Below are positions 6,944-59,422 of a stretch of 64,000 nt of DNA, piece after piece. Each line of letters starts with the position of its first letter. Within the stretch, counting starts at the first letter, position 1. The notes beneath the pieces were generated by a model. That model made no database searches and was not told where the DNA came from. It saw only the letters and a program-made list of their open reading frames with translations. A program made the translations under genes and the position numbers. Origin of the DNA: Pseudomonadota bacterium (GTDB lineage: Bacteria > Pseudomonadota > Alphaproteobacteria > SHVZ01); contig JACQAG010000072.1 of NCBI GenBank assembly GCA_016195085.1, positions 1-64,000 of the forward strand, given 5' to 3'.

Positions 6944-8116
6944 GTGAATATCGCTCTGCGGCCGGCGGTCCGGCCCCGCATCGACGCGCTCGCGGATTCG
7001 AAGATTCGCGAAGTCGCCGCTCCGTGGATGACCAATACGGACGTGATCCCGCTCTGGTTCGGCGAGCCGGATCTGCCGACGCCGCGCTTCATCTGCGATG
7101 CGGCCTCCGCCGCCATGGCAGCGGGCAAGACCCAGTACACGCCGTCCGGCGGCATTGCCGAGCTCAGGCGGGCGCTCGCCCTCTACCAGGAAGGCTTGAA
7201 GGGCCGCGCCATCGATCCCGAGCGGATCGTGGTGACCGCATCCGGCATGAGCGCCATCCAGGTGGTGATGCAGTCGCTCATCGATCCGGGCGACCGCGTC
7301 GTCATTCCGCACCCGCTCTGGCCCAATGCCGCCGCGGTGATCCAGGCCCAGGGCGGGACGGTCACGCCGGTGCTGCTCGAAGCCGAGAACGGCGTCTGGC
7401 ATCTCGATCTGGAGAAGCTGTTCGCCGCCCTCGGCGAGGATGCCCGCGCGCTTTTCCTCAACAGCCCGGGCAATCCCACGGGATGGATGATGACATCCGA
7501 GCAGCAGCGGCAGATCCTCGACTATTGCCGCCGCCGCGGGATCTGGATCATCGCCGATGAGGTCTACGAGCGCATCGTCTACGAGGCGCCGGTGGCACCC
7601 TCGTTCCTCTCCCTGGCCGAACCCGAGGACCGGGTGATTGCGATCAACAGCTTCTCCAAGACCTGGTGCATGACCGGCTGGCGCCTGGGATGGGTCACGG
7701 CACCCTCCTTCCTGGTCGCGACCTTGCATCGCCTGAACGAGTTCAACACCAGCGGCTCCAACACCTTCGTGCAATGGGCCGGGGTGACCGCGGTCGAGGC
7801 GGGGGAGCCGTTCGTCGAAGCGCAGCTCCAGCGCTACCGCCGGGCGCGGGATCTGGTGTTCCAGCGGCTTTCCGGCATGCGGCGGGTCTCGCTTCTGCGC
7901 CCCGCCGGGGCCTTCTATGCCTTCTTCCGGGTGGATGGCATGAAGGACAGCCTCGCCTTCGCCAAACGCCTGGTGGCCGAGCATCGGGTCGGCCTCGCCC
8001 CCGGCACCGCCTTCGGGGCGGGCGGGGAGGGCCATCTCAGGCTGTGCTTTGCCAGCGCACCCGAAACCCTGAGCCGCGCCATGGACCGCATCGAGACGGC
8101 GCTCAGCAAGATCTAA
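6944..8116 (+). CDS. PLP-dependent class I/II aminotransferase (aspartate-aminotransferase-like)
   Basis: A 390-residue fold-type I aminotransferase. It shows the substrate-facing GEPDLPTP and YTPSGGIAELRRAL blocks, LFLNSPGNPTGW, IIADEVYE (Asp to PLP N1, Tyr to O3'), the PLP lysine in SFSKTWCMTGWRLGW and the C-terminal carboxylate-binding Arg in HLRLCFAS. It transfers an amino group between an amino acid and a 2-oxo acid. The specific pair is unknown. The GTG at 6944 gives the standard N-terminus. It follows the small hypothetical gene closely. Confidence 0.92.
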   Translation: MNIALRPAVRPRIDALADSKIREVAAPWMTNTDVIPLWFGEPDLPTPRFICDAASAAMAAGKTQYTPSGGIAELRRALALYQEGLKGRAIDPERIVVTASGMSAIQVVMQSLIDPGDRVVIPHPLWPNAAAVIQAQGGTVTPVLLEAENGVWHLDLEKLFAALGEDARALFLNSPGNPTGWMMTSEQQRQILDYCRRRGIWIIADEVYERIVYEAPVAPSFLSLAEPEDRVIAINSFSKTWCMTGWRLGWVTAPSFLVATLHRLNEFNTSGSNTFVQWAGVTAVEAGEPFVEAQLQRYRRARDLVFQRLSGMRRVSLLRPAGAFYAFFRVDGMKDSLAFAKRLVAEHRVGLAPGTAFGAGGEGHLRLCFASAPETLSRAMDRIETALSKI

Positions 8117-8192
8117 GCGCTGCCATGCCATGACCGCATGGCTCCCATGCCGAGCCAAGCATTGTCTGCATGCGTGTCCGCGCACATGTTCG

Positions 8193-8207
8193 TTGTGCAA
8201 CGCACAA
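8193..8207. promoter_or_regulatory. Palindrome upstream of the DUF1127 gene (candidate operator)
   Basis: A perfect inverted repeat, TTGTGC-AAC-GCACAA, lies 19 bases before the ATG of the DUF1127 gene. Its size and spacing fit a dimeric regulator site. The regulator is unknown and the call is inferred from symmetry and position alone. Confidence 0.4.
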
Positions 8208-8226
8208 TGACGCGACGGAGTTACCC

Positions 8227-8451
8227 ATGCGGACCCCCTCCACGGCCAACTCGGCCAGCAGTCTTTCCAGCGCGCGGCCCCTCGGCTTGGCCGACCTGCC
8301 GCGGCGCATCGTCGACACGCTCTTGCTCTGGCAGCGCCGGGCCTCCGAGCGGCGGCATCTCCTCAGCATGGATGACCGGCTGCTGCAGGATCTGGGCGTG
8401 TCGCGCCTCGACGTCGAGTTCGAGGCCTCGAAGCCGTTCTGGCGCGCTTAA
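8227..8451 (+). CDS. DUF1127 (YjiS-like) small protein
   Basis: A 74-residue protein whose C-terminal half carries the DUF1127 pattern: LLLWQRRASERRHLLSMDDRLLQDLGVSRLDVEFE. Short alphaproteobacterial DUF1127 proteins are Arg-rich and have been linked to RNA turnover and phosphate or stress physiology in some species. Here only family membership is supported. The ATG at 8227 is preceded by ACGGAG and by a palindrome at 8193-8207. An upstream in-frame ATG at 8170 would add 19 residues across the palindrome and is less likely. Confidence 0.88.
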   Translation: MRTPSTANSASSLSSARPLGLADLPRRIVDTLLLWQRRASERRHLLSMDDRLLQDLGVSRLDVEFEASKPFWRA

Positions 8452-9248: not shown

Positions 9249-10490
9249 CTAGCGCTGGCGCAGCAGCAGGCGGTTCAAGCCATTGAAGGCGGCATAGAAC
9301 AGCCGGAACTGGCGATCGAACGCGGCCTCGTCCAGATCCTTGGCGACCTCGCCCGTCAGCGCCTGTCGGATTTCACCAAGGCTGGATCGCCCGTCGATGC
9401 GCTTTGCGATCGCCGGGGCGAGAGGCGGCAGGGGAGAGCGCAGAATGACGCCGTCGACCTCGGCGGTCAGGGTACCGGATGGCTTGATCCCGGCGGCCAC
9501 GGTGGCAGGATCGAGATTGCGGAAGACCGGGACCCAATCGGGACTGTCAGGGCTGGCTACGCTCGGCCCGGCGTTGTCGGCTCTAACCGCATAGAGCACG
9601 TGACGGGCAAGGTTGCCCGCAAGCCGCTCGGCCGCCGCGGCCCGATCCAAGGGAGCCAGGCGGTCGAAACGCGGCAACAAGGTGGCGTCGCTGACGTAGC
9701 TCCTTGGCTCATAGCGCGCGGGCTCGATGAAGGACGACACTCTGAGTCCGGCGCCGGCGAGGAGCTCAGCCAGCTCCGGCACGGAGTAGGAGCGATCCTG
9801 GCGATGCAACAGGAGATCGTAGACGCCTGCATCGTCGCCCGTGACGTGATCCCCGACGAAGGGGTTGCGCTGCAACCAGTTGGTGGGCGGAAGCTGGGCC
9901 AAGAGCCGTCGCGTCAGCGAGATCCGCTCGCGATCGGGGAGATCGTCGGCGATCTGGCGGATCAGCGCCTGCATCGGATAGACGCCGGTGCGCCCGAAGG
10001 TGGCATAGACCATGAGGCCGATGCCGCCCTCGGGCTTGAGCGCGCGCGCCAAGCGGGCGAGCCCGGCTTTTGGATATGCGAGGTGATGCAGCACCCCGCA
10101 GCAATCGATGTAGTCGAAGGCCGCCTCCTCGTCCACGGCTTCGATCGCGCGTTGCTCGAAGCTGATGTTGGCAAGGCCCCGCGCCTTCGCGCGGGCCTTC
10201 GCCACGGCCAAAGAGGCGCTGGAGAGGTCGATGTAGTTGACCGCCGCCGGAACAGCGCGGTCGGCCAGGTGCTGCGCCAGCATGATCGCCCCGTCGCCGG
10301 TACCGCCGCCGGCAATGAGCGCGCGGAACGGCAGGCGCCAGTCGCGTTTGCCGGCGTAGATGTAGTGGTCGATCTCGAGGAGGTGGCTGGGGCTGCCCTC
10401 GATCAGCCGCTTCGATTCATCCCGCGGGTCCCGCGGTGGGTAGGGATAGGTTTCGTACTGGGCGCGAACCGGATCGTTGTCGCGAGTCAA
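9249..10490 (-). CDS. Class I SAM-dependent methyltransferase with C-terminal extension
   Basis: A 413-residue protein. It begins with YETYPYPPRDPR, then has SAM motif I ALIAGGGTGDGAIMLAQHL, motif II acidic strand NYIDLSSASLAVAKARA and the DYIDCCGVLHHLAYPKAGL block, so the N-terminal about 230 residues are a Rossmann methyltransferase. The C-terminal about 150 residues are not assigned; they resemble the helical tails seen in other 'YPYPxRDP' methyltransferases, whose substrates are unknown. It lies 13 bases after the asparaginase gene on the same strand, so the two are probably one transcript. Confidence 0.85.
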   Translation of the reverse strand: MTRDNDPVRAQYETYPYPPRDPRDESKRLIEGSPSHLLEIDHYIYAGKRDWRLPFRALIAGGGTGDGAIMLAQHLADRAVPAAVNYIDLSSASLAVAKARAKARGLANISFEQRAIEAVDEEAAFDYIDCCGVLHHLAYPKAGLARLARALKPEGGIGLMVYATFGRTGVYPMQALIRQIADDLPDRERISLTRRLLAQLPPTNWLQRNPFVGDHVTGDDAGVYDLLLHRQDRSYSVPELAELLAGAGLRVSSFIEPARYEPRSYVSDATLLPRFDRLAPLDRAAAAERLAGNLARHVLYAVRADNAGPSVASPDSPDWVPVFRNLDPATVAAGIKPSGTLTAEVDGVILRSPLPPLAPAIAKRIDGRSSLGEIRQALTGEVAKDLDEAAFDRQFRLFYAAFNGLNRLLLRQR

Positions 10491-10503
10491 TGGAAGCCGC
10501 CCG

Positions 10504-11547
10504 TCAGAACGCCGCGTCGCTGGCGGGGTGAATCTGGCCGACCGGGGTGCCGACCCAATTCCTCAATGTTGGGGTGAATTCATCGGCGAGCGATGCGGCC
10601 TCCTCCCGGCTGAGCGCGCCCAGGCGGACAAGGGCTTGACCCATGGCGATGCCAGAGGCGCGTCCGGCGCCATCCTCGATCTTGATCGCCACGCCGATTC
10701 CCTTCTCCGGCAAGGCCGCCGCATGCACGCCCTCGGCCCCGCCCTTGACCAGGATTCTGCCGCGGCACGCGGCGATCACCTTAGAATCGAAGCGGCCGGT
10801 GCCGGCGATCATGAGCGGATTTGCGGCGACCGCGGCGACGACGCGCCGGCAGGCGGCGGCGCGCCCAGGCGAAAGCCCCGTTGGGTCGGCCAGGTGCGCG
10901 AGCGCGCGGGCCATCTCGGTCAAGCTCACGCCGAAGACCGGAATGCTGCAGCCGTCGCGCCCGCGCGGGCGCTGCCGCAGATTGGCCTCGCAGAGCTCCT
11001 CGAACAACGCGAGGAGCGCCCGCTGCACCGGATGATCGGGGTTGATGTAACCCTTGGTCGGCACACCCAGATGCCGGGCGACGGTGAGAAAGCCCGTGTG
11101 CTTGCCCGAGCAGTTGTTGTGGAGCTGGCTCGGCTCGATGCCGGAGCGGATCAGCCTATGGGCGACCTCGGTATAGCTCGGCAGCTGCACGCCGCATTCG
11201 AGATCGGCTTCGGAGAGTTCGATCCGTTGCAGCCAAGCCCTAACCGCGTCCACATGCATGGGCTCGCCATTGTGCGACGCGGACGCCAGCGCCACCTCGC
11301 GGTCGCTCACCTGGAACCGCTCCGCGGCACCGGATTCGACCAAGACGATGGCCTGCAACGGCTTGATCGCCGAACGCGGATAGATCGGCGTCCCGATCTC
11401 GCCCAGGGCCTCGAGGACACGGCCCTTGGCATCGATCACGGCGAGCGAGCCGCGATGGCGGCTTTCGACCATATCGCCACGGGTCACCTCCGCCAGGATC
11501 GGTGGGGCGATCATCGGTTCGGCACGTGGGTGGGGGCGGCTGATCAT
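10504..11547 (-). CDS. L-asparaginase, class 3 (Rhizobium etli type II-like)
   Basis: A 347-residue protein with the class 3 (thermolabile rhizobial) asparaginase catalytic set: Ser59-x-x-Lys62 in PRSAIKPLQ, Cys146 and Lys149 in NNCSGKHTGF, and Cys200 in GRDGCSIPV. In the characterised enzyme ReAV the two Ser-Lys tandems and the Cys-bound zinc site are essential. It hydrolyses asparagine to aspartate and ammonia. This class is unrelated to E. coli AnsA/AnsB. Start ATG 11547; an internal ATG at 11514 is possible. The neighbouring methyltransferase is probably in the same operon. Confidence 0.9.
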   Translation of the reverse strand: MISRPHPRAEPMIAPPILAEVTRGDMVESRHRGSLAVIDAKGRVLEALGEIGTPIYPRSAIKPLQAIVLVESGAAERFQVSDREVALASASHNGEPMHVDAVRAWLQRIELSEADLECGVQLPSYTEVAHRLIRSGIEPSQLHNNCSGKHTGFLTVARHLGVPTKGYINPDHPVQRALLALFEELCEANLRQRPRGRDGCSIPVFGVSLTEMARALAHLADPTGLSPGRAAACRRVVAAVAANPLMIAGTGRFDSKVIAACRGRILVKGGAEGVHAAALPEKGIGVAIKIEDGAGRASGIAMGQALVRLGALSREEAASLADEFTPTLRNWVGTPVGQIHPASDAAF

Positions 11548-51548: not shown

Positions 51549-52379
51549 ATGGAAAATACAGGTCAATTGCCTGGCCGGCCAGCGGAACCGAAGCCGGAGG
51601 TGCTGGCGCTGGGTCCGCATCGCCTAGCAATTAGGCAACTTCGGAACCAAGCCGCCGGCGCCGCGAGCGTAGGGCCGATCCTCCTCTTCCTGCATGAAGG
51701 TCTGGGATCAATCGGCCAATGGCGCGACGTGCCCGACGCGCTGGCCGAGGCGACCGGACTTCCCGCCTTGGTCTATGACAGAATCGGCCATGGCGCCTCC
51801 TCGCGGCTGGAAGGCAAGCGGCCGCCGGATTTCATGCAGCGCGAGGCCTGGGAGACCCTGCCTCTTCTTTTGGACCGGCTCGGCATCAGCCAAGTAGTGC
51901 CGATCGGTCACAGCGACGGCGGCACCATTGCCCTCTTCTTTGCGGCGGCGTTCCCCGAGCGCGTGCCGGGCGTGGTGACCGAGGCCGCGCATGTATTTGT
52001 GGAAGAGGAGACGCTGACCGGTATCCGGAAGGCGGTCGAGGCGTTCGAGACCGGTGATCTCAAGCCCCGGCTCCAGCGCTATCACGGCGAGAATACCGAG
52101 ACGATGTTCCGCGGCTGGGCCGATGTGTGGCTCAGCGCCGGTTTCCGCGGCTTCTCCGCGCTCGCATCATTGCCGAAGATCGCCTGCCCCGCCCTGGTGC
52201 TGCAAGGCGTCGAGGACGAGTACGGCACCAAGGCGCAGGTCGAGGCGATTCGGTCCGGCATCGCCGGTCCGGTCGAAGCGCATCTCATTGCTAATTGCGG
52301 ACACGCGCCCCATGCGCAGGCGCGCGCCAGCGTGCTGCCGCTGATCGCGGATTTCGTCCGGCGCGTCGTTGACGGCTAG
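51549..52379 (+). CDS. Alpha/beta hydrolase
   Basis: A 276-residue alpha/beta hydrolase: oxyanion segment LLFLHEGLGSIGQWRDVPDALA, YDRIGHGASSRL, nucleophile elbow GHSDGG with Ser, acid region QGVEDEYGT, and base His in NCGHAPHAQ. It resembles pimeloyl-ester or lactonase-type hydrolases; the substrate is unknown. It is divergent from the acyl-CoA ligase gene with 72 bases between starts, so the ester or thioester pathway of that operon is a plausible context. Its stop shares CTAG with the convergent PuuE-like gene. Confidence 0.9.
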   Translation: MENTGQLPGRPAEPKPEVLALGPHRLAIRQLRNQAAGAASVGPILLFLHEGLGSIGQWRDVPDALAEATGLPALVYDRIGHGASSRLEGKRPPDFMQREAWETLPLLLDRLGISQVVPIGHSDGGTIALFFAAAFPERVPGVVTEAAHVFVEEETLTGIRKAVEAFETGDLKPRLQRYHGENTETMFRGWADVWLSAGFRGFSALASLPKIACPALVLQGVEDEYGTKAQVEAIRSGIAGPVEAHLIANCGHAPHAQARASVLPLIADFVRRVVDG

Positions 52380-53332
52380 GAGCGGAGCGACGGCGCCCCC
52401 TTCGCGGGCGCATGGTGCGCGTGCCAGTGCCGCGCGATGTCGATCCGACGGGCGAGCCAGACGCCATCATGGGCCGCCGCATGGTCGAGGAAGCGCTCGA
52501 GCGCCGCGATCCGGCCCGGACGCCCGACGAGCCGGCAGTGCAGGCCGATCGACAGCATCTTTGGCGTCTCCGCGCCTTCGGCGTAGAGCGTGTCGAAGGC
52601 GTCTCTGAGGTAACCGAAGAATTGATCGCCGGAGTTGAAGCCCTGGGGGGTGGCGAAGCGCATGTCGTTCGTGTCGAGAGTATAGGGAATGACCAGATGC
52701 GGCCCGCGCGGGCCCGCGATCCAAATGGGCAGATCGTCGGCATAGGAATCCGACGAGTAGAGAAAGCCGCCCTCTTCCATGACGAGCTTGAGGGTGTGGC
52801 CGGAGCAACGACCGGTGTACCAGCCGAGCGGCCGCTGGCCGGTGACTTCCGTGTGGATGCGGATCGCCTCGCCGAGATGGACGCGCTCCTCGCCCTCGGG
52901 CATGTCCTTGTAGTCGATCCACTTCAAGCCATGGCTGGCGATCTCCCAATCGGCCTCGCGCATCGCCGCCACCGCTTCGGGGTTGCGCGCGAGCGCGGTC
53001 GCCACGCCATAGACGGTGATCGGCACCTTACGCCGGGTGAAGAGCCGCCACAGCCGCCAAAAGCCGGCGCGCGAGCCATATTCGTAAACCGACTCCATGT
53101 TCGGGTTGCGCTGGCCCGGCCACGGCACCGCGCCGACGCTCTCGGAGAGGAAGGCCTCCGATGCGGCATCGCCGTGCAGGATGCAGTTCTCGCCGCCCTC
53201 TTCATAGTTGAGGACGAGTTGCACCGCGATGCGTGCCGCTCCCGGCCAGCCTGCCTGGGGCGGACGGCGCCCATAGCCCACGAGGTCGCGCGGATAAGCG
53301 GAAGGAGAGCTCAGAGCCACGGGTTCCTCCAT
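52376..53332 (-). CDS. puuE: Polysaccharide deacetylase-fold protein, PuuE allantoinase-like
   Basis: A 318-residue NodB-fold protein with the PuuE-like blocks YPRDLVGYGRRPPQAGWPGAARIAVQLVLNYEEGGENCILHGD, WEIASHGLKWIDY (PuuE has ASHGYRWIDY) and LGWYTGRCSGHTL. PuuE homologues act as allantoinase on the cyclic ureide of purine breakdown, without the metal of classical allantoinases. Because it sits beside a racemase-fold protein and a ureide-type regulator, this is the most likely role, but another cyclic amide is possible. ATG 53332 is the family start. Confidence 0.82.
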   Translation of the reverse strand: MEEPVALSSPSAYPRDLVGYGRRPPQAGWPGAARIAVQLVLNYEEGGENCILHGDAASEAFLSESVGAVPWPGQRNPNMESVYEYGSRAGFWRLWRLFTRRKVPITVYGVATALARNPEAVAAMREADWEIASHGLKWIDYKDMPEGEERVHLGEAIRIHTEVTGQRPLGWYTGRCSGHTLKLVMEEGGFLYSSDSYADDLPIWIAGPRGPHLVIPYTLDTNDMRFATPQGFNSGDQFFGYLRDAFDTLYAEGAETPKMLSIGLHCRLVGRPGRIAALERFLDHAAAHDGVWLARRIDIARHWHAHHAPAKGAPSLRS

Positions 53333-53406: not shown

Positions 53407-54132
53407 TCAGCGCGTTCGCCGGAGAGGTTCGACGACGAGGCGGCGCGCCGCCGGCAACGACAGCCGCGCCAGCGCCTCGGCTTGCGCGAGGGCGGCCTGC
53501 AGCGAGTCGATCAGGGGAACCTTGAATTCCGGCTGCAACGCGGCGGCGAAGCCGGCAAGCGCCGCGCCGCCGATGATCACCACATCGGCGTGATGACGCT
53601 CGATCGCCTCGACGACCGCCGCCCGGAGCTGGCTCAGCGCCTCGTCGCGCTTGGACGCGAGATCGAGGGCTTGTCCCGGGAGGGCGAGGATGGCGCAAGA
53701 GCGACGCTCAAGGCCGGTTTGGCGCAGCAATTCGCCGAGCATTCCGGGCCAGCGCTCGCCGACCGTGACGATCGCGAAGCGGTCGCCGGACTGCAGCGCC
53801 GAGAGAACCGAAGCCTCGGCCATGCCGACGACCGGGAATGAATGCAGCTCGCGAACGGCGCCGATGCCCGGCTCGCCGAAACAGGCGAGGACGCAGGCAT
53901 CGAATTGTCCGGGTGCATACGCATCGACCGCCCCTGCGACGGTTTCGAGGATCCCATGGGCGGCGATCGTCGCCTCCGCGCGCGAGGCGATGTAGCGGGG
54001 ACCGACGCGTGGAGCGGCGGCGACGATGGTGTAGTCGGGGCGATAGAAGCGGCGTGCCGAGAGGGCGAGCTCGCGGGTCAGCGCCTCAGTGGTGTTGCCG
54101 TTGACGAGCAGGATGTTGAGAGGGGCGGTCAT
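53407..54132 (-). CDS. Asp/Glu/hydantoin racemase superfamily protein lacking the second catalytic Cys
   Basis: A 241-residue protein with the racemase opening NILLVNGNTTEALTREL and the first catalytic block DACVLACFGEPG (Cys84), as in hydantoin/allantoin racemases. The second block, normally VLGCAG, reads VIIGGAALAG here: Gly189 occupies the second Cys position. Two-Cys proton transfer is therefore not possible in the usual way. The protein may be a decarboxylase, isomerase or single-base enzyme. The start at 54132 lies next to a candidate GntR operator. Its partner PuuE-like gene lies 74 bases downstream. Confidence 0.85.
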   Translation of the reverse strand: MTAPLNILLVNGNTTEALTRELALSARRFYRPDYTIVAAAPRVGPRYIASRAEATIAAHGILETVAGAVDAYAPGQFDACVLACFGEPGIGAVRELHSFPVVGMAEASVLSALQSGDRFAIVTVGERWPGMLGELLRQTGLERRSCAILALPGQALDLASKRDEALSQLRAAVVEAIERHHADVVIIGGAALAGFAAALQPEFKVPLIDSLQAALAQAEALARLSLPAARRLVVEPLRRTR

Positions 54133-54151: not shown

Positions 54152-54258
54152 TCCTACGCGAATTGCGGGCCAGATCGCCATGTATTGTATTCACGATGCA
54201 TCTGGATCGGCTATAAACCGACGCGGATGCCTTTGCCACGGCCGTGGATGCTGCCCGG

Positions 54259-54960
54259 ATGACCTCGTCGCGACCCAAGGCCCAGGATGTTTCCCGCAGC
54301 CAATTCGTCTACGAGGCACTGCGGCGCGCGATCATCGAGCAGGCGCTGCTGCCCGGTGACAAGCTGCCCGAGGACGTCATCGGCGAGCGCTTCGGCGTCA
54401 GCCGGACCATCGTGCGCGGCGTGCTCGGTCGTCTGAATGCCCAGGGCTTGGTGGATCTCCGGCCGAACCGGGGCGCCACGGTGGCGCATCCCAGCCTCGA
54501 TGAGGCCTTTGACATCTTCGAGGCGCGCCGATCGCTGGAACGCGATGTCGTGCGCCGCCTCGCCGGCCGGGTGACGCGGGACGACCTGATCGCCCTCGAG
54601 GCGCATGTGGCGCTGGAGGAAGCGGCGCGCGAGCACGGCGGCGTGGAATCGATCCGGCTCTCTGGGGAATTTCACATCATCCTGGCCGAGCGTGCCGGCA
54701 ATGCGGTGATCGCCCGCTACGTCAACGAACTGGTCTCCCGCTGCTCGCTCATTCTGGCGCTCTACGGCCGGCCCCATTCTTCCGATTGCGCCGTCAACGA
54801 GCACCTGCAGATCGTGGCCGCGCTCCGGGACGGCGACGCTGAGGCGGCGATCGAGGTCATGGCGGGGCATCTGGAGGCGGTGACGCAGCGGGCGTTGCTC
54901 GCCTCCCCCGACAAGCGCCGGCGGGACATTCGGGTGATCCTGGACGAATACGCCGGTTGA
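54259..54960 (+). CDS. GntR-family transcriptional regulator, FCD type
   Basis: A 233-residue regulator. Winged helix PGDKLPEDVIGERFGVSRTIVRGVLGRLNAQGLVDLRPNRGATV and an FCD domain (SLDEAFDIFEARRSLERDVVRRLAG... VNEHLQIVAALRDGDAEAAIEVM). It is divergent from the racemase-like gene and co-directional with the ABC importer genes, so it probably controls both. Start ATG 54259; GTG 54244 is possible. Candidate operators at 54140 and 55012-55043. Confidence 0.92.
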   Translation: MTSSRPKAQDVSRSQFVYEALRRAIIEQALLPGDKLPEDVIGERFGVSRTIVRGVLGRLNAQGLVDLRPNRGATVAHPSLDEAFDIFEARRSLERDVVRRLAGRVTRDDLIALEAHVALEEAAREHGGVESIRLSGEFHIILAERAGNAVIARYVNELVSRCSLILALYGRPHSSDCAVNEHLQIVAALRDGDAEAAIEVMAGHLEAVTQRALLASPDKRRRDIRVILDEYAG

Positions 54961-55043: not shown

Positions 55044-55219
55044 ACTGATCAAGCCCTTTGCAGTCCCGCGGCGGCGGTCACGGGAGTGGAGGAAGGCCGG
55101 CTGCTGCGCCCGGGGTGAGCCGAGAGGCGAATCAGCGGCTTGCAGGCGCGCTTGGGGCTCCGCCGATCCGTGGCATGGGCATTGCGACGAGGGCCAGTCG
55201 GAGACGACTGGCAGGAATC

Positions 55220-56215
55220 ATGCGCGGCGCCAAGCTCGAGCTCGTCAAGGTCACCAAACGCTATGGCGAAACCCTCGCGGTTGACGCCGTCGATCTCCGC
55301 ATTCCCGCCGCGACCTATTGCTGCCTTCTCGGTCCCTCGGGCTGCGGCAAGACGTCGATCCTGCGGATGATTGCCGGCCACGAGGCGGTGAGCGGCGGCG
55401 ACATCATCCTCGGCTCGGTCAACGTCACCGACATGCCGCCCGCAACCCGCGGTACCGCGATGATGTTCCAGTCTTATGCGTTGTTTCCGCATCTCTCCAC
55501 GCTCGATAACGTGGCTTTCAGCTTGAAGATGCGGGGCATGCGGAAGGCGGAGCGGCAGGCCCGGGCGCTCGAGCTCCTGGGTCTCGTCGCCATGGAGGGA
55601 TACGCCGCCCGCCGCCCGGCGCAGCTTTCCGGCGGCCAGCAACAGCGGGTGGCGCTCGCCCGCGCGCTGATCACCGCCCCGCAGCTTCTGCTGCTGGATG
55701 AACCCCTGTCGGCGCTCGATCCGATGCTGCGGGTCAAGATGCGCACCGAACTGAAGCGCCTGCAGAAAGACCTGGGCATCAGCTTCGTGCACGTGACCCA
55801 TTCCCAGGACGAGGCTATGGCGCTGGCCGATCTCGTGGTCGTCATGAATGATGGCCGCATCGAGCAGGCCGGCCAGCCGCGCGCGGTGTTCAACGCGCCG
55901 GCCAGCGAGTTCGTCGCCCGCTTCATCGGCGGCCACAACGTCATCGAAACCGCCGCCGGTCTGGTCACCGTGCGCGCGGATCGGCTGAAGTTGATCCACG
56001 CCGGGCGGAGCGCGGACGGCGCCCTGGCGGGCACCGTCCGAGACATTGAATATCAAGGCTCATTCGTCCATCTCACGCTCGAAACCGAGCGGGTTCGAGA
56101 CCTCACGGCGATCCTCGACGAGACGGCCTACTACGCCGATCCCCTCGATCCCGGCGACCGCGTCGCCATCACCTGGGATGAGCGCGACGCACACCCTCTA
56201 AGGGCAAGCGTCTGA
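55220..56215 (+). CDS. Polyamine-type ABC transporter ATP-binding protein (PotA-like)
   Basis: A 331-residue ATPase: Walker A GPSGCGKTSILR, signature LSGGQQQRVALARAL, Walker B LLLLDEPLSALDP, and a C-terminal TOBE region (GALAGTVRDIEYQGSFVHLTLETE). PotA-class ATPases power import of polyamines, putrescine or related compounds. ATG 55220 follows GGCAGGA. The frame extends upstream (385 residues) through Arg-rich non-domain sequence. First gene of the importer operon. Confidence 0.92.
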   Translation: MRGAKLELVKVTKRYGETLAVDAVDLRIPAATYCCLLGPSGCGKTSILRMIAGHEAVSGGDIILGSVNVTDMPPATRGTAMMFQSYALFPHLSTLDNVAFSLKMRGMRKAERQARALELLGLVAMEGYAARRPAQLSGGQQQRVALARALITAPQLLLLDEPLSALDPMLRVKMRTELKRLQKDLGISFVHVTHSQDEAMALADLVVVMNDGRIEQAGQPRAVFNAPASEFVARFIGGHNVIETAAGLVTVRADRLKLIHAGRSADGALAGTVRDIEYQGSFVHLTLETERVRDLTAILDETAYYADPLDPGDRVAITWDERDAHPLRASV

Positions 56216-56255: not shown

Positions 56256-57563
56256 ATGACGGACAGGAAGAGGACGAGCAGCTCCATGCGTTTCGGCGCC
56301 GGCATGAGCCGGCGGACGGTGCTGAGAGGGGTCGCCGCCGCTGCCGGTCTCGCCGCCGGTAGCAAGGCCATCACCGGCTTTCCGGCGGTCATCGCCGCCG
56401 AGCCCGTGACCCTGCGCTATCTCGGCACCGCGGTGAACCAATCGGCCGACATCGCCAGGAAGGTGAAGGAGGATCTCGGCATCGTCATCGAGTACGTCCC
56501 GGTCACCACCGACGACGTGACGAAGCGCATCATCACCCAGCCGAACTCCTTCGATCTGGTCGACAGCGAGTATTTCAGCCTGAAGAAGCTCCTGCCTTCG
56601 GGCAACCTACAAGGCATGAGCGCGAAGCGGATCAAGCACTTCGACAAGATCACGCCGGTGTTCACCAAGGGTGAGATCGCGGGCAAGAAGATCGGCGACC
56701 AGGGTACCGCGCCAAAGAAGGTCTTCTATCTCGCCGGCGCGACCTCGACCAAGTTCTCGCCGACGCCGACCGAGTGGATCACGCTCATTCCGACGGTTTA
56801 CAACGCCGATACCCTCGGCATCCGCCCCGATCTGATCAAGCGTCCGATCACCAGCTGGAAGGAGCTGCTGAACCCGGAGTTCAAGGGCAAGGCGGCGATC
56901 CTCGATATCCCCTCGATCGGAATCATGGATGCGGCGATGGTGGTCGAGGCCACCGGCCAATACAAATATGCCGACAAGGGCAACATGACGAAGAAGGAGA
57001 TCGACCTCACCATGAAGATCCTGACCGACGCGAAAAAAGCCGGTCAGTTCCGCGCCTTCTGGAAGGACTTCAACGAGAGCGTCAATCTCATGGCCTCGGG
57101 CGAGACGGTGATCCAGTCCATGTGGTCGCCCGCCGTGACCAAGGTGCGCTCCCAGGGTGTGGCCTGCGTCTTCCAGCCATTGCAGGAAGGCTATCGCGCC
57201 TGGGCCGCCGGCTTCGGCGTGCCGAAGACGCTGAAAGGCAAGAAGCTGGATGCGACCTACGATTTCATCAATTGGTTCATGTCGGGCTGGGCCGGCGCCT
57301 ACCTCAATCGCCAGGGCTACTACGCCGCGGTGCTGGAGACCGCCAAGGCGAACATGGAGCCCTACGAATGGGCCTATTGGATGGAAGGCAAGCCCGCGCA
57401 GAAGGACATCAAGGCGCCGGACGGGACGGTCTTGGAAAAGGCCGGCACCGTGCGCGACGGCGGCTCCTACGAGGCGCGCATGGGCGGCGTCGCCTGCTGG
57501 AACGCCGTCATGGACGAAAACGACTACATGGTGCGCAAGTGGAATGAGTTCATCGCGGCGTGA
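56256..57563 (+). CDS. ABC transporter substrate-binding protein with Tat signal
   Basis: A 435-residue binding protein (SBP_bac_1/PotD-like). The Tat signal is SRRTVLRGVAAAAGLAAGS with the twin Arg, cleaved near AVIAAEP. The mature part has DDVTKRIITQPNSFDLVDSEYFSL and SGWAGAYLNRQGYYAAVLETA. Tat export suggests pre-folding or a cofactor. The ligand is probably a polyamine-like or ureide-like nitrogen compound; unproven. It ends with an overlapping stop/start to the permease gene. Confidence 0.92.
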   Translation: MTDRKRTSSSMRFGAGMSRRTVLRGVAAAAGLAAGSKAITGFPAVIAAEPVTLRYLGTAVNQSADIARKVKEDLGIVIEYVPVTTDDVTKRIITQPNSFDLVDSEYFSLKKLLPSGNLQGMSAKRIKHFDKITPVFTKGEIAGKKIGDQGTAPKKVFYLAGATSTKFSPTPTEWITLIPTVYNADTLGIRPDLIKRPITSWKELLNPEFKGKAAILDIPSIGIMDAAMVVEATGQYKYADKGNMTKKEIDLTMKILTDAKKAGQFRAFWKDFNESVNLMASGETVIQSMWSPAVTKVRSQGVACVFQPLQEGYRAWAAGFGVPKTLKGKKLDATYDFINWFMSGWAGAYLNRQGYYAAVLETAKANMEPYEWAYWMEGKPAQKDIKAPDGTVLEKAGTVRDGGSYEARMGGVACWNAVMDENDYMVRKWNEFIAA

Positions 57564-58513
57564 TGATGGGATCGGAGGCCGGGGTTTCCCCGGCCTCTTC
57601 GCTCGTTGAGGAAAGAGGCGTGGCGAGCAGCGCCGCCAGACTGCCGCGCGCTGCGGCGGCCTATCTCCTGGTTGCGCCCTTCGCGCTGGTCCTGCTGCTG
57701 TTCTTCGTCCTCCCGATCGCTCTGACGCTCGTCGTCAGCTTCTGGAGCTACAACGAATATTCGATCACGCCTAGCTTCACCCTCGAGAACTACGCCGGCG
57801 TGTTCGAGGGATGCGTGAGCCGGCTGCCAGAGCTCTGCACCACCTTCAAGACCTATCTCTCCACGGCGAAATTCTGCGTTTCCGTGTGGGCGCTGACGCT
57901 CCTCATCGGCTTCATCGTGTCCTACTTCCTGGCCTTTCACGTCCGATCGCCCGCGGTTCAAATTGCGCTTTTCCTCGTCTGCACGATCCCGTTTTGGACC
58001 TCGAACGTCATTCGCATGATCTCGTGGATCCCGCTGCTCGGCCGCAACGGCGTCGTCAATCAGACGCTGACCGCCATGCGGGCGACAGGCGAGCCGATCG
58101 AATGGCTGCTGTATTCGGACTTCGCCGTGGTGCTGGCGTTCGTGCATCTATTCATCACATTCATGATCGTACCGATCTTCAACTCGATGATGCGGATCGA
58201 CCGCCGGCTCCTCGAAGCCGCCCGCGATGCCGGCGCGTCCGGCTGGCAGACTCTCTGCAATGTCGTGGTGCCGCTGTGCAAGCCCGGGATTGCAATCGGC
58301 TCGATCTTCGTCGTCACCATCGTCATGGGTGACTTCGTCACCATCGGTGTGATGGGCGGCCAGCAGATCGCCTCCGTCGGCAAAGTGATCCAGGTGGAGA
58401 CCAGCTATCTGCAGTTCCCGATCGCGGCGGCGAACGCCGTGATCCTGCTCGCGGTCGTGCTCATGGTGATCTGGGGCTTGACCCGGCTCGTCGATATCCG
58501 CAAGGAGCTCTGA
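57560..58513 (+). CDS. ABC transporter permease (PotB-like)
   Basis: A 317-residue permease: AAYLLVAPFALVLLLFFVLPIALTLVVSFWSYNEYSI, and the EAA loop MMRIDRRLLEAARDAGASGWQTLCNVVVPLCKPGIAIGSIF. It starts at GTG 57560 (or ATG 57563/57566) overlapping the binding-protein stop. It forms the channel with the PotC-like gene. The last helices end near LVDIRKEL. Confidence 0.93.
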   Translation: MMMGSEAGVSPASSLVEERGVASSAARLPRAAAAYLLVAPFALVLLLFFVLPIALTLVVSFWSYNEYSITPSFTLENYAGVFEGCVSRLPELCTTFKTYLSTAKFCVSVWALTLLIGFIVSYFLAFHVRSPAVQIALFLVCTIPFWTSNVIRMISWIPLLGRNGVVNQTLTAMRATGEPIEWLLYSDFAVVLAFVHLFITFMIVPIFNSMMRIDRRLLEAARDAGASGWQTLCNVVVPLCKPGIAIGSIFVVTIVMGDFVTIGVMGGQQIASVGKVIQVETSYLQFPIAAANAVILLAVVLMVIWGLTRLVDIRKEL

Positions 58514-58516
58514 GCG

Positions 58517-59422
58517 ATGCTGAAGGAAGGGCGTCCTGCGTCGTTCTATTGGCTCGCAATCGTCTTCGCGCTCTTCGTGCTGTTCCTCTATGGGCCGACG
58601 ATCACCATTCTGGCGCTTTCCTTCCAGGGCCCGGAGGGCGGGCTGACGCTGCCCATGAACGGGATGTCTTCGTTTTGGTTCGCCAAGCTATGGGCCGGCG
58701 TTGGCGTCATCGACATCTGGTCCGCCTTCGCTCGCTCGATGAAGCTCGGCCTGGCGGTGATGGTGCTCACCGTCATTCTGTGCGTGCCGGCGGGCCTTGC
58801 CTACCGCATGCGGTTTCGCGGCTCGACGGCGCTCTTCTACGTCACCATCGCCAGCCTCATCGTTCCCTCGATCGTCGTCTCGCTCGGCATCGGCTTCGAG
58901 TTCCGGCTGATCGACGAGGCGGTCAAAGGCCTGGCCGAGGCCTGGGATATCGACTGGTTGGCGGAGAGCTATACGACGGCGATGGGGCTTTTCACGTCCG
59001 CCCTCGGCGCGCATCTCAGCTGGACCTTGCCATTCGGTCTCCTCATCATGTTCGCGGTCTTCAACCGCTTCGACCGGCGCTATGAGGAGGCCGCCCGCGA
59101 TCTCGGCGCCACATCCTGGCAAACCTTCCGCCATGTCGTGCTGCCGATGATCTTGCCTTCGGTGATTGGCATCGGACTCTTCGGCTTTACGCTCTCCTGG
59201 GACGAGATTGCGCGCACCAGCCAGGCAATCGGCGACCGCAATACGCTGCCGTTGGAGCTACAGGGGCTGACGACGACGGTGACGACGCCGGAGATCTACG
59301 CCCTGGGCACGGTGACCACCGCGATTTCTCTGGCGGTGGTGATGCTCGCATTGGCGGCCATCTCGCTCCTGCGCCGACGCCAGGCTCGGCACGGCTCCGA
59401 TGCCGGCAAGGGATTGGTCTGA
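58517..59422 (+). CDS. ABC transporter permease (PotC-like)
   Basis: A 301-residue permease with N-terminal helix IVFALFVLFLYGPTITILALSFQ, helix MVLTVILCVPAGLAYRMRF, and the EAA loop RYEEAARDLGATSWQTFRHVVLPMILPSVIGIG. It is the last gene of the importer operon, 3 bases after the PotB-like stop. It ends beside the convergent LysR gene. Confidence 0.93.
   Translation: MLKEGRPASFYWLAIVFALFVLFLYGPTITILALSFQGPEGGLTLPMNGMSSFWFAKLWAGVGVIDIWSAFARSMKLGLAVMVLTVILCVPAGLAYRMRFRGSTALFYVTIASLIVPSIVVSLGIGFEFRLIDEAVKGLAEAWDIDWLAESYTTAMGLFTSALGAHLSWTLPFGLLIMFAVFNRFDRRYEEAARDLGATSWQTFRHVVLPMILPSVIGIGLFGFTLSWDEIARTSQAIGDRNTLPLELQGLTTTVTTPEIYALGTVTTAISLAVVMLALAAISLLRRRQARHGSDAGKGLV

Follow-up and report, generated by a model that had tools for sequence, protein, structure and literature searches.

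A racemase-superfamily protein with glycine at the second catalytic cysteine site, encoded next to a PuuE-type allantoinase gene

Gene neighbourhood and predicted fold

The 64,000-nucleotide stretch of DNA analyzed here (the window) contains an ORF at 53407..54132 on the minus strand that starts with ATG and encodes a protein of 241 amino acids (the window protein). Residues 7–218 match the Asp/Glu/hydantoin racemase profile PF01177 with 146.2 bits (E 1.5e-42) against a curated cut-off of 31, which places the protein in this superfamily; the same profile matches all 30 members of our homologue set A1 at E ≤ 0.001. No NCBIfam family was found for the window protein at E ≤ 0.001. A plasmid search returned 54 records, 53 of them below 60% identity.

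An AlphaFold2 model (mean pLDDT 90) predicts the two-domain racemase fold, which allantoin racemases match at a Z-score of ~31. Among the matches listed, the top one is AllR from Pseudomonas fluorescens (PfAllR; PDB 5lg5, Z 31.6, 1.8 Å over 217 residues), and the Klebsiella pneumoniae enzyme (KpAllR, also HpxA) matches at Z 30.9 (3qvk) and 30.7 (3qvj). Hydantoin racemase (2eq5, Z 23.9) and OpaE (Z 23.2) score lower, and maleate isomerase and arylmalonate decarboxylase reach a Z-score of about 20. Foldseek searches with the same model also rank allantoin racemases first.

The next gene downstream (52376..53320, minus strand) encodes a PuuE-type allantoinase, with about 540 bits against TIGR03212 (cut-off 424.6) and an E-value of 4.1e-134 against PuuE (3cl6). 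Its likely start is the GTG at 53320, just preceded by GGAGGA; an ATG at 53332 is an alternative. The genome holds three PuuE-family genes, scoring 541 (the one in the window), 448, and 389 bits. The idea that the copy in the window is a stray paralogue finds no support, as it is the top scorer of the three. PuuE uses up (S)-allantoin, and (R)-allantoin remains.

On the other side, divergent from the racemase-like gene, lie a GntR/FCD regulator gene (54244..54960) and a four-gene ABC transporter, all on the plus strand and assigned by profile matches. The transporter genes encode a Pot/Phn-type ATPase (55058..56215, with a true start that may lie inside the ORF), a solute-binding protein (56256..57563), and two permeases (57560..58513 and 58517..59422). 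The second permease gene is followed by a LysR gene on the opposite strand, and no racemase gene is found there. The neighbouring genes suggest cyclic ureides, and not malonates, as substrates.

Elsewhere in the genome, contig 31 carries a paralogue with both catalytic cysteines, and contig 71 an OHCU decarboxylase domain. The latter is part of one ORF that, by eye, has an apparent UraH part and lies beside an apparent PuuD gene.

Catalytic sites and characterized relatives

The first catalytic block (residues 80–87, at 53872..53895 on the minus strand) contains Cys84, Phe85, Gly86, and Glu87, in the motif ACFGEPGI. The second block (residues 187–195, at 53548..53574 on the same strand) lacks cysteine and contains Gly189-Ala-Ala-Leu-Ala-Gly, in the motif VIIGGAAL; in the closest two-Cys relatives this block usually reads LGCAGM or LGCGGM. 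The codons are TGT for Cys84, GAG for Glu87, and GGC for Gly189. In phmmer alignments to 3qvj and 5lfd both blocks are gap-free: Cys84 stands opposite the first catalytic cysteine of 3qvj, and Gly189 opposite the second cysteine of both enzymes. The codons and alignments uphold the proposal of a first-pass annotation that the protein has a single catalytic cysteine, Cys84, with Gly189 at the second site.

That annotation had staked its proposal beforehand on Cys80 and Cys146 lying away from the second catalytic position. Judged by alignment, neither residue is in a catalytic block, and we discard both as a hidden second catalytic cysteine. In the model, Cys80 lies in strand 79–82, and beyond the nearest relatives the position is mostly Ala. 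Cys146 starts strand 145–151, where most A1 rows have Ala; it stands opposite Ala in 3qvj and 5lfd, whose non-dyad cysteine is one place earlier, opposite Ser145.

The window protein shares its fold, its length, and 32% identity with KpAllR, as well as the first catalytic cysteine and the F-G-acid-P-G loop. However, it differs from this two-Cys type in having Gly in place of the second catalytic cysteine, and in a pocket loop that reads IASRAE instead of IEGHFD, unlike either known allantoin racemase. By residue offset, we infer that this stretch, with positions 49 and 51, is the probable counterpart of loop A of OpaE, which lines the pocket of that enzyme.

PfAllR (5lfd, 5lg5) likewise has one cysteine of the dyad and a Glu three residues past site 1. 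Its arrangement, with Gly75 at site 1, Glu78, and Cys180 at site 2, is nevertheless the reverse of that in the window protein, where the cysteine stands at the first site and the glycine at the second. The residue that aligns with Glu78 is Glu87, yet it is on the side that still holds a cysteine, Cys84. PfAllR is said, in work by Cendron et al. in 2016, to be an active racemase in which Glu78 takes the place of the lost cysteine. One-Cys allantoin racemases are thus already known, and the loss of a single cysteine is by itself no sign of a new reaction.

Two-base stereochemistry is commonly illustrated with this superfamily. The statement in the first-pass annotation that its racemases need two cysteines is too strong, given Gly75 at site 1 of PfAllR and the L-aspartate/glutamate racemase of Escherichia coli (EcL-DER), which is active with Thr83/Cys197. 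EcL-DER has an unbalanced one-Cys pair like that of the window protein, but with Thr for the first cysteine and the second one kept.

Arylmalonate decarboxylase (3dg9, 3ixl) has the superfamily fold and one catalytic cysteine, as does the window protein. Its sites are Gly74 and Cys188, in the motifs LMGTSLSF and ILLSCGGL. The natural decarboxylase therefore keeps the other cysteine, and the view of the first-pass annotation that the window protein has the opposite half-site holds. Decarboxylation and ring opening, the examples given there of a new one-sided reaction, are conjectural. The arrangement in the window resembles instead the Gly74Cys/Cys188Ser mutant in the title of 3ixl. The motif LMGTSLSF is absent from the window protein, and none of the 30 A1 members matches the arylmalonate decarboxylase family PF17645 at E ≤ 0.001.

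The Gly189 branch and its loci

We collected 126 distinct family sequences, including two from the PDB; as they were chosen for their similarity to the window protein, the Gly189 branch is over-represented among them. The residue pairs at sites 84 and 189 are Ala/Gly (50), Cys/Cys (35), Cys/Gly (25), Thr/Ser (8), Val/Gly (3), Gly/Cys (2), and one each of Met/Gly, Cys/Ser, and Thr/Glu. A tree was computed from 79 of the 126 sequences with columns 84 and 189 removed, leaving out the nine rows with Thr at site 1 (eight Thr/Ser, one Thr/Glu), rows at least 85% identical to a kept row, and rows shorter than 190 residues. All 51 Gly189 rows form a single branch (bootstrap 100, SH-aLRT 98). Gly189, whose conservation the first-pass annotation had proposed to check, is a trait of this whole branch (51 of 51 rows). 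Column 189 needs two changes on this tree and column 84 needs six. A single Gly189 branch in a tree built without these columns, with only two changes, indicates that the pattern is more than chance. Judged by sequence, the window protein is a member of a distinct branch and not a lone oddity. Among the open-access papers listed as matches, no title or beginning of an abstract refers to a Gly189 branch.

Site 84 in the branch is Ala in 24 rows, Cys in 23, Val in three, and Met in one, leaving 28 of 51 rows with no catalytic cysteine at either site. The first cysteine is therefore optional in the branch, and Cys84 is not its uniting trait. Rows with Ala84 include Reyranella, Roseomonas, and Rhodobacteraceae. 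Position 87 is acidic throughout (Asp in 44 rows, Glu in seven, among them the window protein), but its retention is no proof of a new role, since all 25 two-Cys rows have an acid there as well, in each case Asp. The matching place at site 2, position 192, is Leu in 45 rows, as in the window protein, Met in five, and Ala in one, with no acid. Asn11 and Asn13 are invariant (51/51), and at position 106 there is a Glu in 46 rows and an Asp in five.

The pocket loop separates the two kinds. Arg51 occurs in 45 of the 51 rows of the branch, and all 24 two-Cys rows listed (of 25) lack it. Conversely, 23 of 25 two-Cys rows and PfAllR have Glu49, which is absent among the 49 branch rows listed (of 51). 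The window protein falls in a well-supported subgroup of seven rows with Phyllobacterium, Microvirga, Aquabacter, and others; Cys84, Glu87, and Arg51 occur in all seven, and Glu126 in five.

In a separate group of homologues, Thr occupies the first site and Ser the second (IDTxSDxG and LGSTTMHQ-like motifs). It is found in loci L017, L019, L020, L025, L147, and L174, and forms tandem pairs in L017 and L025.

So as not to select loci by their racemase, we used the solute-binding protein as a query against 387 genomes of the class. Matches at E ≤ 1e-90 occur in 50 of the 387, counting the genome of the window itself. Among the best 25 matches outside that genome (at least 57% identity), 18 loci have a two-Cys racemase gene directly after the permeases, one (L230) has only a Gly189 protein, and six have no racemase, one of which (L232) ends at a contig end. 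A PuuE gene is present in three of the 25. One of the 18, L218, whose transporter is the closest of those read, also has a PuuE gene, and its two-Cys racemase gene is followed in tandem by one for a divergent Ala84/Gly189 protein. This Gly189 protein is on a long branch, keeps Glu49, and lacks Arg51, and its place in the tree is unsure.

Neighbours within 4 kb were counted in the rows with a 4 kb flank, 47 of 51 in the branch and 15 of 24 among the two-Cys locus rows. Of the 47 branch rows, 34 have no PuuE-family gene within this distance. The 13 that have one come from several subgroups, but a single close group, the Reyranella type, supplies seven of these. In L041, a Reyranella-type locus with a Cys-less member of the branch, the partner is PuuE-like and at 334 bits is under the allantoinase cut-off. 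Genes for PuuE, TrzA-like proteins, amidases, or carbon-nitrogen hydrolases are near 28 of 47 branch rows; the two-Cys rows (n = 15) have a PuuE-family neighbour in two cases and any of these hydrolases in seven, a comparison biased towards the branch because most hydrolase queries came from branch loci. Since 34 of 47 rows are without PuuE, while TrzA-like, amidase, or carbon-nitrogen hydrolase genes accompany 17 and oligopeptide-type ABC genes 12, substrates may differ across the branch.

The PuuE model was searched in 23 chosen branch-carrying genomes. Those of L036, L041, L062, and L066 have 14 to 18 TIGR03212 matches each at E ≤ 0.001, weak deacetylase-type matches included.

Possible function of the window protein

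We tentatively favour, at somewhat under even probability, a reading in which the window protein is a putative active offshoot of the allantoin/hydantoin racemases, acting beside PuuE on allantoin or a closely related cyclic ureide with acid–base chemistry mainly on one face. Its observed basis is the predicted fold, the missing second cysteine, the acid at position 87, the neighbouring genes, and the origin in one branch. By analogy with KpAllR and OpaE, where backbone positions after the two sites are reported to hold the enolate, the backbone after both sites (Phe85 and Ala190) would hold the ring or its enolate. At site 1, proton transfer in either direction would fall to Glu87, aided by Cys84 in the subgroup of the window protein. 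The loop at site 2, with Gly189, would offer no acid, which would favour a one-face reaction over plain two-base racemisation. Candidates for such a reaction are tautomerisation and, at a ring carbon, stereospecific protonation or decarboxylation. Because L218 encodes both kinds of protein in tandem, the one-face role is perhaps additional to racemisation and not its replacement. The gain of Arg51 and the loss of Glu49 suggest a substrate somewhat other than allantoin.

A plain allantoin racemase, supplying PuuE with (S)-allantoin from the (R)-form, is a close rival, given the locus and a possible second base, and we give it roughly a one-in-three chance. One face would be served by Glu87/Cys84, the other by water or by a further group, perhaps Glu126. 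Besides Glu87, Glu126 is the one acid noticed whose loop, going by internal symmetry, may be turned towards site 2; it could be the second base in the subgroup, five of seven rows of which have it. The adjacent PuuE, being (S)-specific, leaves the (R)-isomer to be used. Moreover, a two-Cys racemase usually accompanies this transporter family (18 of the 25 best loci) and none follows the permeases in the window, and PfAllR is likewise one cysteine short of the dyad and reportedly active. On the other hand, the acid of PfAllR is on the face without cysteine and Glu87 on the face with Cys84, the pocket loop differs from those of both known allantoin racemases, L218 has both kinds of protein, and the genome has its two-Cys paralogue on contig 31.

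The remaining two explanations appear improbable. The protein might decarboxylate a carboxylated ureide to a single enantiomer, for example as a stand-in for OHCU decarboxylase; one superfamily member with a single cysteine, arylmalonate decarboxylase, is a decarboxylase, and the branch-specific Arg51 could bind a carboxylate. This idea is weakened by the OHCU domain (UraD), which is present in the genome of the window and in 27 of 32 chosen branch-carrying genomes overall, and the A1 members' failure to match PF17645 and the missing LMGTSLSF motif also speak against it; we hold it to be very doubtful. Hardly more probable is a pseudoenzyme whose retained racemase fold would serve binding or regulation. 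The loss of both catalytic cysteines in more than half of the branch would fit this, but Asn11, Asn13, and the acid at 87 in all 51 rows, together with Glu or Asp at 106, suggest a working site.

Our preferred reading, an active offshoot with mainly one-face chemistry, has a bolder and rather unlikely extension, in which the whole Gly189 branch would have abandoned two-face proton transfer by cysteines entirely and would be a new catalytic subfamily with carboxylate-driven one-face chemistry on cyclic ureides, relying on Asp/Glu87 with the cysteine optional. Free allantoin has a bicyclic ring-swap route of isomerisation that needs no second base. In its boldest form, the subfamily would interconvert allantoin isomers by such a ring swap, without breaking a C–H bond.

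A branch of natural proteins that is conserved, lies among catabolic genes, and has one catalytic cysteine or none would show how this fold shifts its chemistry, and may supply natural versions of the mirror-image active site engineered in arylmalonate decarboxylase. It is also a warning for annotation, as proteins labelled aspartate/glutamate or hydantoin racemases may use another mechanism.

Several loci place different members of the superfamily together. In L143, neighbouring racemase-family genes at ~5089 and ~5863 have complementary losses, Ala84/Gly189 and Gly84/Cys189. In L035, a Gly189 protein with one cysteine and a homologue with two (7001–7759 and 10259–10927) are encoded in one cluster, along with a carbon-nitrogen hydrolase and a TrzA-like amidohydrolase. 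In L078, an arylmalonate-decarboxylase-like gene (7726–8421, PF17645) is next to or near a Cys-less Gly189 gene, and genes recognized by similarity to it are located by or near such genes in L071, L074, L160, and L162.
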